Origin: Kiritimatiellales bacterium
GTDB lineage: Bacteria > Verrucomicrobiota > Kiritimatiellia > Kiritimatiellales > Pontiellaceae
Assembly (NCBI GenBank): GCA_003246265.1
Contig: QKAU01000073.1
Coordinates: forward strand, 1 to 41,989
DNA length: 41,989 nt
Direction: 5' to 3'
The notes below the pieces were generated by a model. The model was given only the letters and a program-made list of their open reading frames with translations. It was not told the DNA's origin and did no database searches. The position numbers and the translations under genes are program-made. Each line of letters starts with the position of its first letter. Within the stretch, counting starts at the first letter, position 1. Positions 2,389-41,989 of this stretch are shown here, piece after piece.

Positions 2389-2418
2389 TTGACAGCCCTG
2401 CGCCGCCGGGCGTAGGTT
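2389..2418 (+). promoter_or_regulatory. Promoter of the leu leader and leuA
   Basis: A consensus -35 TTGACA (2389-2394) is followed, after 18 nt, by TAGGTT (2413-2418), or after 17 nt by GTAGGT. It starts 24 nt after the rlmI stop. If the -10 is right, transcription starts near 2425, only a few bases before the leader ATG at 2429. The leader mRNA would then be nearly leaderless. Confidence 0.5.
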
Positions 2419-2428
2419 GCCCCGCGTC

Positions 2429-2506
2429 ATGGAACACAAAGCCAACAACCTGCTACTGGGCCTGCTGCTCGCTGGGAACGATCCTGCGATACCGGTTTGC
2501 CGCTAG
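2429..2506 (+). CDS. leuL: Leucine-rich leader peptide of leuA (attenuation)
   Basis: A 25-codon ORF, ATG 2429 to TAG 2504-2506, whose core reads NNLLLGLLLAG: six Leu codons within seven (CTG CTA CTG GGC CTG CTG CTC, 2450-2470). It ends 24 nt before an intrinsic terminator, and the next gene is leuA, the first committed enzyme of leucine synthesis. This is the layout of ribosome-mediated attenuation leaders. When charged tRNA-Leu is scarce the ribosome should stall on the Leu run, freeing downstream RNA to form an antiterminator. No good Shine-Dalgarno is visible (CGTAGG about 10 nt upstream is weak). An in-frame TTG lies at 2417. The peptide itself probably has no other function. The ORF and codon run are seen directly; regulation is inferred. 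A tRNA-Leu(CAG), which reads CUG, is encoded at 28607. Confidence 0.85.
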   Translation: MEHKANNLLLGLLLAGNDPAIPVCR

Positions 2507-2542
2507 GTTGCTGAACGAACCTTTTGAAGAGCCTCCGCAGGA
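2482..2542 (+). promoter_or_regulatory. Candidate antiterminator pairing in the leu leader
   Basis: TCCTGCG (2482-2488), immediately after the Leu codon run, is perfectly complementary to CGCAGGA (2536-2542), which includes half of the terminator's 5' arm. A ribosome stalled on the Leu codons leaves 2482-2488 largely free. A ribosome at the stop codon (2504) covers it, which favours the terminator. A further small hairpin (AGGTT at 2504-2508 with AACCT at 2517-2521) lies inside the loop. The pairing is seen; its use as an antiterminator is inferred. Confidence 0.6.
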
Positions 2543-2564
2543 GAAACCCTGCGGAGGCTTTTTG
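2531..2564 (+). terminator. Attenuator terminator upstream of leuA
   Basis: Perfect ten-pair stem GCCTCCGCAG (2531-2540) with CTGCGGAGGC (2549-2558), eight-base loop, then TTTTTG. It lies between the leader peptide and leuA with no other gene it could end, so it is best read as a conditional terminator. Confidence 0.9.
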
Positions 2565-2658
2565 TTTGCGGGCGGTAGCCCGCCGGGGTTTTTGAAGGAA
2601 AGAAATGGATAAGGAACAACGGGGTTGTTTAGACTGCGCCCCATTTAGGAGAGAAAAC

Positions 2659-4335
2659 ATGAATGTGCCGAAATACCGGATACCGGAGATGATCGACCTT
2701 CCCGACCGCCAGTGGCCGGCGAAGAACGTGACCCGCTCGCCCCAGTGGTGCTCGGTCGATCTGCGCGACGGCAACCAGGCCCTCCCCAACCCGATGGACC
2801 CCGACCAGAAGCTCGAGTACTTCAGGTTGCTCTGCGACATCGGCTTCAAGCAGATCGAGGTCGGGTTCCCTTCCGCCAGCCAGGACGACTTCGACTTCTT
2901 CCGCAGGCTGATCGAAGAGGGTCTCGTTCCGGACGATGTCTTCATCATGGGCCTGACCCAGTGCCGGCCGCACTTGATCGGGCGCACTTTCGAAGCGTTC
3001 AAGGGCTGCCGGCGCGGGATCGTCCATGCCTACATCGCCCCCTCCGACCTCCATATGAAGCAGGTGTTCGGCATGGATCGACCGCATCTCGTCGATACCG
3101 CCGTGGCCGCCACGAAGCAAATCCGGGAGCTCGCCGACCGGATGCCGGAGTCGGATATCCGCTACGAGTTCTCCCCCGAGGAGTTCACCGACACCGATGT
3201 CGACTTCTCGCTCGAACTCTGCACGGCGGTCTTCGAGGCGTGGGGCAAGGCGACACCGGAAAAGCCGCTGATCATGAACCTTCCCGCCACGGTCGAGCGG
3301 CGGCCGCCCAACCACTATGCCGACATGATCGAATGTTTCTGCCGCCGCTTTCCGCGGCGGGACAGCATCGTCGTTTCGCTCCACGCCCACAACGACCAGG
3401 GCATGGGCGTGGCGTCGGTCGAGCTGGGGCTCATGGCGGGGGCCGACCGCGTCGAGGGCACGCTGTTCGGCCATGGCGAGCGCACCGGAAACGTGGATCT
3501 GGTCACCTGCATCAACAACCTCTATTCGCGCGGCATCGACACGGGCATGGATTTCTCCAACCTTGCCGACATTGCCGCGACGGTGGAGCGGTTGACCGGC
3601 ATGCCGATCTACTATCGGCAGCCCTATGCCGGCGAATACGCGTTCACCGCCTTCTCCGGCTCTCACCAGGATGCCATCAACAAGGGGATCCACAAGCTGT
3701 CCGAGGCGCCGGAGCGCTTCGGCATGGGGTGGAAGGTGCCCTACCTCCACATCGATCCCGCAGACATCGGCCGCAGGTTCGAACGGCTTATCCGGATCAA
3801 CTCCCAGTCCGGCAAGGGGGGGATTGCCTGGGTATTGGAGCAGGACTTCGGCATCGAGATCCCGAAGGCGATGCAGCCGGAGCTCGGGAAGCATGTCCAG
3901 GCCTACAGCGAATCGGTCGGCCGCGAAATCAGCGGACAGGAGGTCTACGAAGTCTTCCAGAACGAGTTTGTCGCGCCCCAGGGGCCCTACGAGCTCGTCG
4001 GCTACTGGCCGCGCCCCGACGAGAAGGATCCGACCTTCATCCATGGAGAGGTCAAGCTCTCCATCGACGGCGAGCCCAAGACGGTCGTGGCCGACGGGAA
4101 CGGGCCGATTTCGGCGTTCGTCAACGCGGTCAAGACGGTGGTCGGCTTCGATATCGCCGTGGACGACTACCACGAACAGGCGATCGGCAAAGGAGCCGAT
4201 GCGCAGGCGCTGGCCTATGTTCCGCTGAAGATAGCCGGGAACGGCGTGCTCTTCGGAGTCGGGGCCGATTCGAACATCGACCAGGCCGCGGTCCGCGCCA
4301 TTGTTGCCGGCCTCAACCGCATCGCGAAGAAATAA
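2659..4335 (+). CDS. leuA: 2-isopropylmalate synthase
   Basis: Catalyses condensation of acetyl-CoA with 2-oxoisovalerate, the first committed step of leucine synthesis (558 aa). The TIM-barrel catalytic domain shows DLRDGNQA (residues 34-41, metal-binding Asp) and HAHNDQG (about 242-248, metal-binding His residues), then LFGHGERTGN. A C-terminal regulatory domain of about 130 residues is present (GEVKLSIDGEPKTVVADGNG), the site of leucine feedback in the family. The length and the NVPKYRIPEM-type N-terminus match the longer LeuA class (yeast/actinobacterial type). ATG 2659 is chosen over ATG 2605 because AGGAGA sits 6 nt upstream. Preceded by the leucine attenuator; aroE follows after 76 nt and may be co-transcribed. 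Confidence 0.97.
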   Translation: MNVPKYRIPEMIDLPDRQWPAKNVTRSPQWCSVDLRDGNQALPNPMDPDQKLEYFRLLCDIGFKQIEVGFPSASQDDFDFFRRLIEEGLVPDDVFIMGLTQCRPHLIGRTFEAFKGCRRGIVHAYIAPSDLHMKQVFGMDRPHLVDTAVAATKQIRELADRMPESDIRYEFSPEEFTDTDVDFSLELCTAVFEAWGKATPEKPLIMNLPATVERRPPNHYADMIECFCRRFPRRDSIVVSLHAHNDQGMGVASVELGLMAGADRVEGTLFGHGERTGNVDLVTCINNLYSRGIDTGMDFSNLADIAATVERLTGMPIYYRQPYAGEYAFTAFSGSHQDAINKGIHKLSEAPERFGMGWKVPYLHIDPADIGRRFERLIRINSQSGKGGIAWVLEQDFGIEIPKAMQPELGKHVQAYSESVGREISGQEVYEVFQNEFVAPQGPYELVGYWPRPDEKDPTFIHGEVKLSIDGEPKTVVADGNGPISAFVNAVKTVVGFDIAVDDYHEQAIGKGADAQALAYVPLKIAGNGVLFGVGADSNIDQAAVRAIVAGLNRIAKK

Positions 4336-40813: not shown

Positions 40814-41989
40814 ATGGCCGTTGTACCCGACAGGCAAACATTCTTGGAACAGGCGAAAAAGGGCAACCTTGTGCCGGTGTGGAAGGAGATCCTCGCCGAC
40901 CAGGAGACGCCGGTTTCGGCCTACGAGCGCATCCGCACCTATCTGCGCCAGCGCGAACACGCCTCGCACACCTACCTGCTGGAAAGCGTGGAGGGGGGCG
41001 AGAAGATCGGGCGCTACTCCTTCATCGGGGGCACCCCGCGCACCATCCTTCGCGCCTATGGACGGCGCGTCGAAATCTCCAGCAACGGCGATGCGCCGCA
41101 GGTGGTCGAGGATATCGATCCGCTCGAGGCCCTGCGCCTCCACATGCAGCAGTTCACCCCGGTATTCGACGACCCGTCCCTGCCCAGGTTTGTCGGCGGG
41201 GCGGTCGGATTCCTCGGCTACGACGTGGTGTCGGTCTTCGAGCCCCGCGTGCCGGTGATCCCGAACGACGAGATCGGCAACCCCGACATGGTGTTCATGG
41301 TGACCGACGGCCTGGTGGTGTTCGACCGCGTCAAGCATACCCTCAAGGTGGTCGCCAACGCCCACATCGACGGCGATCCCGATGCGGCCTACGACAAGGC
41401 CCTGCTCCAGATCGACCAGCTTTGCGAAGCGCTCCGCACGCCGGTCGATCGCGTCCTCATCGATACCCACGATGCCGTGGAACCGATCGAACCGGTATCC
41501 AATACGACCCGCGAGGAGTTCTCCGGAATGGTGGAAAGGGCGAAGGAGTACATCCGGGCCGGCGACGTCATCCAGGTGGTCCTTTCCCAGCGGTTCGAGG
41601 TCGACAACGAGGCCGATTCGCTCGATGTCTACCGCGCGTTGCGCTCCATCAACCCTTCGCCCTACATGTTCTGCCTCGACATGGGCGGCAGCTCCATCGT
41701 CGGGACCTCGCCGGAAATCCATGTGCGTTGCGAAGACAAGCGGGTCGAGGTGCGCCCCATCGCCGGAACCCGGCCGCGCGGCCGGACGCAGGAGGAGGAC
41801 CTGGCGCTGGAAGCCGAACTGCTCGCCGATCCCAAGGAGCGTGCCGAGCACATCATGCTGGTGGACCTTGGTCGCAACGACATCGGTCGCGTGTGCGGTT
41901 TCCAGAGCGTGGCGGTTCCCGACCTGATGGTCATCGAGCGCTACAGCCATGTCATGCACATCGTGTCCGACGTCACGGGACGGCTGGCC
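40814..41989 (+). CDS. trpE: Anthranilate synthase component I, 3' end outside the window
   Basis: 392 codons are visible and the frame is open at the last base, so the gene is cut by the window edge. It converts chorismate, with ammonia from TrpG, to anthranilate. The N-terminal regulatory part has the tryptophan-binding LLESVEGGEKIGRYSFIGG; the chorismate-binding core shows VIQVVLSQRFEV, RSINPSPYMFCLD, IVGTSPEIHVRC, PIAGTRPRGRTQEED and VDLGRNDIGRVC, which separate it from PabB. Upstream sequence is AT-richer than usual. The Shine-Dalgarno is weak (CGAGA). The rest of the trp genes, if linked, lie beyond 41989. Confidence 0.96.
   Translation, partial: MAVVPDRQTFLEQAKKGNLVPVWKEILADQETPVSAYERIRTYLRQREHASHTYLLESVEGGEKIGRYSFIGGTPRTILRAYGRRVEISSNGDAPQVVEDIDPLEALRLHMQQFTPVFDDPSLPRFVGGAVGFLGYDVVSVFEPRVPVIPNDEIGNPDMVFMVTDGLVVFDRVKHTLKVVANAHIDGDPDAAYDKALLQIDQLCEALRTPVDRVLIDTHDAVEPIEPVSNTTREEFSGMVERAKEYIRAGDVIQVVLSQRFEVDNEADSLDVYRALRSINPSPYMFCLDMGGSSIVGTSPEIHVRCEDKRVEVRPIAGTRPRGRTQEEDLALEAELLADPKERAEHIMLVDLGRNDIGRVCGFQSVAVPDLMVIERYSHVMHIVSDVTGRLA

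Follow-up and report, generated by a model that had tools for sequence, protein, structure and literature searches.

A leucine-rich leader and a terminator precede leuA

The window, by which we mean the whole analysed stretch of 41,989 nucleotides, was placed in Kiritimatiellales, near Pontiella. The original prediction had assigned it to a probable PVC bacterium, rightly so since Kiritimatiellales lies in PVC. Upstream of leuA, the gene for 2-isopropylmalate synthase, we read the following features:

2389..2394, + strand: -35 box TTGACA of promoter P1 (read directly; TTGAC stands before 25 of 26 aligned leaders)
2413..2418, + strand: -10 box TAGGTT (18 nt after the -35 box; TATGTT in most relatives)
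2429..2506, + strand: leader peptide ORF MEHKANNLLLGLLLAGNDPAIPVCR, 25 codons plus the stop TAG (sequence; coding-like evolution in its own frame only)
2450..2470, + strand: putative regulatory Leu codons CTG CTA CTG GGC CTG CTG CTC, six Leu in seven codons (sequence)
2469..2477, + strand: strand 1, the 5' arm of the protector, overlapping the last Leu codon (consensus fold; 96.9% of cells paired, 16 leaders)
2482..2492, + strand: strand 2, the 3' arm of the protector and 5' arm of the antiterminator, core TCCTGCG at 2482-2488 (alignment pair counts, constrained folding)
2531..2542, + strand: strand 3, the 3' arm of the antiterminator (core CGCAGGA, 2536-2542) and 5' arm of the terminator (2531-2541) (alignment, folding)
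2548..2563, + strand: strand 4, the 3' arm of the terminator, CCTGCGGAGGC, plus TTTTT (sequence; three pairs with compensatory changes)
2647..2653, + strand: leuA Shine-Dalgarno AGGAGAG (sequence; kept in relatives)
2659..4335, + strand: leuA, 2-isopropylmalate synthase, 558 aa, yeast/Actinobacteria form (NCBIfam profile matches)

All coordinates of the original prediction were correct on direct reading, and the 25-codon ORF with its six Leu in seven codons is present where it had been placed. The proposed antiterminator segment TCCTGCG (2482-2488) is indeed complementary over all 7 nt to CGCAGGA (2536-2542). The terminator, described as a perfect ten-pair stem with a T-run, is perfect and followed by TTTTT (2559-2563), but its arms, GCCTCCGCAGG (2531-2541) and CCTGCGGAGGC (2548-2558), form eleven pairs. 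Both pairings are confirmed in the sequence; a third one, the protector hairpin joining 2469-2477 with 2482-2489, had been overlooked. Considering both strands of the 42 kb window, the leader is the sole ATG ORF of 10-45 codons with at least six Leu in seven, and 20 dinucleotide shuffles of the whole window contained no such ORF. The RNA from 2420 to 2570 has a folding z of -3.75.

The leuA product scores 717.5 bits against NCBIfam PRK03739.1 (cut-off 455) and 660.1 bits against TIGR00970 leuA_yeast, slightly below the cut-off of 697.4; its ATG at 2659, with AGGAG 5' of the start, was read directly. The leader's upstream neighbour is a methyltransferase-like gene that ends at 2365 on the same strand as the hairpin, and aroE, not leuBCD, lies 3' of leuA. 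A second GC-rich hairpin (GCGGGCGGTAGCCCGC) with GGGGTTTTT is located at 2568-2590, directly 3' of the terminator.

The element accompanies leuA in relatives

Two covariance models, R1 built from 16 leaders of the window's genus and R2 from 10 leaders of a sister family, were used to search 288 genomes of the class; the relatives are mostly metagenome bins. R1 matched 20 genomes of the genus (a broken copy in genome G020 among them) and 11 of the sister family, once each and before leuA. R2 recovered most of these places, and the model from either family detects the other. Intact strong copies, one per genome, are found in 19 genomes of the genus, the window included, and in 11 of the sister family. 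No convincing copy was found elsewhere in the 288 class genomes, the remaining matches being weak (E about 0.002 or higher) and taken as chance. The leader consensus reads M(K/R)NEFNN(L/R)LLGLLL(L)AGNDPVEAVCL in the genus and MxxxFNSLELLLLAGETLREFCAC in the sister family, each followed by the stop.

The original prediction had proposed to compare the leuA upstream regions of related genomes. Among genomes with a judgeable leuA start and upstream region, the element is kept in 19/22 of the genus and 11/12 of the sister family, and Leu run, antiterminator and terminator stay together in these 30 of 34 genomes. The four judged genomes without an intact leader are G011 and G016, which are small and without an R1 match (G016 was judged from the model alone), G034, where leuA lies directly behind its upstream gene, and G020. 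Loss of the Leu run with retention of the hairpin, which had been named as the observation that would speak against a leucine sensor, is absent as a class but was seen once, in G020 (locus L047). Here a single deletion, starting immediately behind the -35 box and reaching the last leader codons, has left the residual ORF MEEETCL with its stop, while the terminator remains; this is a broken copy rather than a member of some hairpin class that lacks the leader peptide. The gene upstream of it ends like prephenate dehydratase. Two further genomes, G005 and G012, carry a small cupin-like gene between the putative attenuator and leuA (in G005, L096 about 1666-2031), and this gene is presumably under leucine control too.

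A simple scan of the 400 nt upstream of ilvB and trpE in the same genomes revealed no conserved similar leader, so of the three genes tested leuA alone seems to be subject to attenuation. The trpE gene of the window (40895-41986) runs past the window end, and neither it nor the trpE of relatives is preceded by a Trp-rich leader.

The leader evolves as a coding sequence with an unusual choice of Leu codons

The rough ratio of nonsynonymous to synonymous changes in the leader frame is 0.33 in the genus and 0.39 in the sister family, compared with 0.59-1.68 in shifted frames (0.99 and 0.59 in the window's genus). Insertions and deletions in the ORF are whole codons, and as many as five different codons are used in the Leu columns. 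Of the 108 leader Leu codons of the genus, 42 (39%) are CTA, vs 3 of 550 (0.5%) in the adjacent leuA genes and 30 of 1052 in the ORFs of the window. For the sister family, CTT, CTC and CTA together account for 43/58 leader Leu codons vs 8/317 in leuA genes. This preference for Leu codons that leuA avoids points to codon reading.

Three mutually exclusive pairings are conserved

All 26 aligned leaders contain three mutually exclusive pairings: protector 1:2, antiterminator 2:3 and terminator 3:4. The terminator is conserved in every one of them, and in the 16 leaders of the genus its main stem is 99.2% paired. The protector is 96.9% paired in the genus, with a G-C/A-U exchange at one pair, and the corresponding hairpin of the sister family is 100% paired; the antiterminator reaches 87.5% and 97.5%, respectively. 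When the strands were slid as a control, pairing dropped to 33-61%. Of the compensatory changes that the original prediction had suggested looking for, the terminator has them, at three pairs, but covariation of the antiterminator in the genus consists of G-U changes, with no double changes. Shuffle controls for 1:2 and 2:3 did not reach significance because most columns hardly vary, and support for these two helices therefore comes from conservation and from the folding test below. The window's own 2:3 helix is a short version, with 7 contiguous pairs (9 in the constrained fold); compared with shuffles its energy is unusual at 1%, its pair count (18%) is not.

A further helix, joining CAACAACC (codons NNL) to GGTTGTTG behind the stop, was considered and is not claimed for the window's genus, where it is 85% paired, with several breaks and no compensatory change. 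Its sister-family equivalent is 95% paired and has one double change.

A ribosome on the last Leu codons frees the antiterminator in folding tests

For the folding test, nucleotides that a ribosome would hold were masked, and in the stalled case strand 4 was taken as not yet made. With the ribosome on the last Leu codons, 8-14 antiterminator pairs formed in 26/26 leaders; with the ribosome absent or at the stop, none of the 26 formed any, and the full-length RNA gave the terminator with 11-14 pairs. For 23 of the 26 leaders, no more than 2% of shuffled spacers gave an energy this low, although these 26 tests are not independent as the leader sequences are related.

The last Leu codon and strand 2 are separated by 12 nt in 16/16 leaders of the genus and 11 nt in 10/10 of the sister family, despite differing ORF lengths. 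A ribosome has been reported to cover up to 12 nt downstream of a stop codon (PMC4833913), and the spacing of 11-12 nt matches this reach.

The leader mRNA probably begins at or near the AUG

The TTGACA promoter that had been proposed before the leader holds up: its -35 box is present, and its weak -10 box (TAGGTT, 3/6 consensus matches) is supported by a conserved position in relatives. The weakness of this box explains why a simple promoter scan does not call P1. The leader ATG follows the -10 box by 10 nt in 16/16 leaders of the genus and by 9-14 nt in the sister family. Transcription usually starts 6-9 nt after the -10 box, and the 5' end in the genus would consequently lie 0-5 nt upstream of the AUG, too close for a Shine-Dalgarno sequence to fit in between. 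The leader mRNA of the genus is thus probably leaderless, judging from this spacing; leuA, unlike the leader ORF, has a Shine-Dalgarno sequence.

Proposed mechanism and alternatives

Taken as a whole, the locus very probably controls leuA by ribosome-mediated transcription attenuation, with charged leucyl-tRNA as the signal that is sensed. The conserved Leu run, antiterminator and terminator upstream of leuA support the same reading in the original prediction. More specifically, the transcript from P1 would have its 5' end very close to the leader AUG. With ample leucine, the ribosome would pass the Leu run to the stop and either cover strand 2 or leave it in the protector 1:2; strand 3 could then pair with strand 4, and RNA polymerase would terminate before reaching leuA. 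If charged tRNA-Leu runs low, the ribosome would stall at 2450-2470 and open strand 1, exposing strand 2 beyond its leading edge, such that strands 2 and 3 could form the antiterminator and the polymerase would continue into leuA.

Other readings account for parts of this picture. Lying 170-200 nt behind the methyltransferase gene and on the same strand, the hairpin might be the 3' terminator of that gene, next to an ORF that is rich in Leu by chance. This is extremely improbable, as the element accompanies leuA while the upstream gene varies (methyltransferase-like in the window, unrelated and membrane-protein-like in G005), a promoter stands between upstream gene and hairpin, the ORF is conserved as codons and shuffling yields no such ORF. 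Conservation of the peptide past the Leu run (FNN...AGNDPVEAVCL; FNSLELLLLAGETLREFCAC) would be expected if the nascent peptide, in the manner of TnaC or ErmCL, arrested the ribosome rather than a lack of charged tRNA-Leu. The C-terminus, however, is conserved because its codons encode RNA strands 1 and 2. In G032 (L024, a single-contig genome) the stop comes directly after LLLLAG and strand 2 persists as untranslated RNA, the RNA strands being intact; the C-terminus of the peptide is thus dispensable, which is evidence that the tail matters as RNA. Together with the use of Leu codons that leuA avoids, this makes peptide arrest very unlikely. T-boxes precede leuA in two Deltaproteobacteria (PMC2494555), and a T-box or another ligand-binding riboswitch could in principle control leuA here as well. 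We give this next to no credence: none of the leader, T-box and riboswitch families in Rfam passes its gathering threshold in the window, no T-box appears at E up to 5 within 2300-2700, and the conserved element fits in 136 nt, over half of them coding.

A weightier alternative, though still an unlikely one, grants that the attenuator is real but makes it minor, most leuA transcription being driven by a second promoter behind the terminator. Immediately upstream of the leuA Shine-Dalgarno, 19/19 aligned loci share a block of the form ATGGA-N18-CGGGGTTGTTTAGATTA..CCCC (about 2605-2653 in the window) that includes an invariant TANNNT and stays beside leuA where the leader is lost or displaced. 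It may be such a candidate promoter; attenuation would then govern only part of leuA transcription. Yet the block may instead be an operator or a hairpin, its GGGG-N14-CCCC stem has no covariation support, it is not evident in the sister family, and an attenuator without effect would hardly persist in 30/34 genomes.

Read as a ribosome-mediated attenuator, the locus represents a well-supported case of amino-acid attenuation in Kiritimatiellota. Its natural variants (the truncated peptide, the broken copy and the gene inserted between leader and leuA) help to dissect the mechanism. Because attenuation needs a ribosome close behind RNA polymerase, the element is also a ready reporter of transcription-translation coupling, and it is usable as a reporter for leaderless initiation in PVC bacteria.

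Relation to known leucine leaders

The Rfam family Leu_leader (RF00512) had no gathering-level match in the window and was not listed even at E up to 5; the best leader match was His_leader (RF00514), with 30.9 bits vs 49 needed. The leuL leader of Salmonella and E. coli, to which RF00512 corresponds, combines a Leu-rich peptide with protector/antiterminator/terminator logic and an intrinsic terminator before leuA. The leader described here has in common with it the Leu-rich peptide, the three-way hairpin logic, the terminator before leuA and the use of the rare codon CUA, but no sequence relation is detectable, the AUG lies near the likely transcription start without a Shine-Dalgarno sequence, and leuA is of the yeast/actinobacterial form, followed by aroE rather than leuBCD. 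The Salmonella leu attenuator uses CUA, and for E. coli this codon was predicted to be the most suitable one (PMC1183508).

Actinobacteria have leucine leaders before leuA and leuS, including the LEU element, a pseudoknot in which the Leu-codon run and the leuA Shine-Dalgarno form the base stem (PMC1262725), and LeuL1 of Streptomyces lividans, MRFGLLLLSCRGEGL, is a leaderless leucine leader (PMC8079986). A short Leu-rich leader before leuA, probably leaderless, is shared with these. The actinobacterial leuA leader, however, is described as a pseudoknot and is without a typical terminator, whereas here a classical terminator switch is found and about 180 nt separate the Leu run from the leuA Shine-Dalgarno. 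LeuL of Campylobacter jejuni, located before leuABCD, has 28 residues with five Leu codons, all of them rare (CUA, CUC, CUG) (PMC3847290); rare Leu codons are common to both, while phylum, operon and sequence differ. The ilv-leu operon of Staphylococcus aureus has experimental support for Leu-dependent terminator read-through behind a leader peptide (PMC5794164). Leader peptide and terminator behind it are again shared, but that attenuator controls ilv-leu, has Ile codons as well and belongs to another phylum.

Naville and Gautheret, 2010 stated that leader-peptide systems had to their knowledge been demonstrated in no groups other than Proteobacteria and Actinobacteria, to which they added Firmicutes (PMC2965389). 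The description of leucine leaders as known mainly from Proteobacteria and Actinobacteria was accordingly slightly narrow, given the published Firmicutes examples (PMC5794164, PMC2965389). As for the suggestion that the element is undescribed in its phylum, we found none like it in Rfam, and the open-access papers searched yielded no such leader from Kiritimatiellota, Verrucomicrobia or Planctomycetes (the survey Lopatovskaya 2010 lies outside that scope). The mechanism is thus classical, textbook attenuation, and the element, within that scope, is a new member.

Leucine leaders in other PVC lineages

Related leuA loci labelled Phycisphaerae or Planctomycetota, labels that derive from metagenome bins, also carry Leu-rich leaders, for example MIRQRNSLSLLLLLGLLLR followed by a stop. 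Eight Phycisphaerae-labelled leaders were aligned (L059 89-219, L061 1014-1144, L062 385-508, L064 2832-2966, L065 1235-1368, L067 1903-2034, L071 2806-2940 and L084 2832-2960). In this set the start region ATGATCCGTCAG acts as strand 1. Strand 2 overlaps with the stop codon, and strand 3 continues into a terminator-like hairpin, with no clear T-run in two of the eight (L064 and L071). Taken together, the helices of these eight leaders are 93.2% paired and have double changes at 9 pairs, and none of 500 shuffles matched either the paired percentage or the covariation score. In the seven that were folded, a ribosome placed on the Leu codons gave the 2:3 helix. From these alignments and folds, Phycisphaerae-labelled leuA genes carry a second, differently wired putative attenuator.

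We see an even chance that there was more than one origin, or rewiring, of classical leucine attenuation in PVC, with a protector on the last Leu codon and an mRNA starting at the AUG in Kiritimatiellales, and with the start region ATGATCCGTCAG pairing with the stop-overlapping strand in Phycisphaerae. If functional in Planctomycetota, such leaders would need tight transcription-translation coupling, which is debated there given the unusual cell organisation.

Two other kinds of Leu-rich leader were noticed before leuA. Those of L057, L058, L063, L066, L085 and L086 have a common L-R-L-T/S-like core (CGACTTA or similar), followed by terminators. Those of L078, L080, L081 and L082 (Lentisphaeria) are of the MYTYGTxLLxERLLLLSLRLxGAAVSS type with no obvious terminator hairpin and T-run, and perhaps act by translational control.
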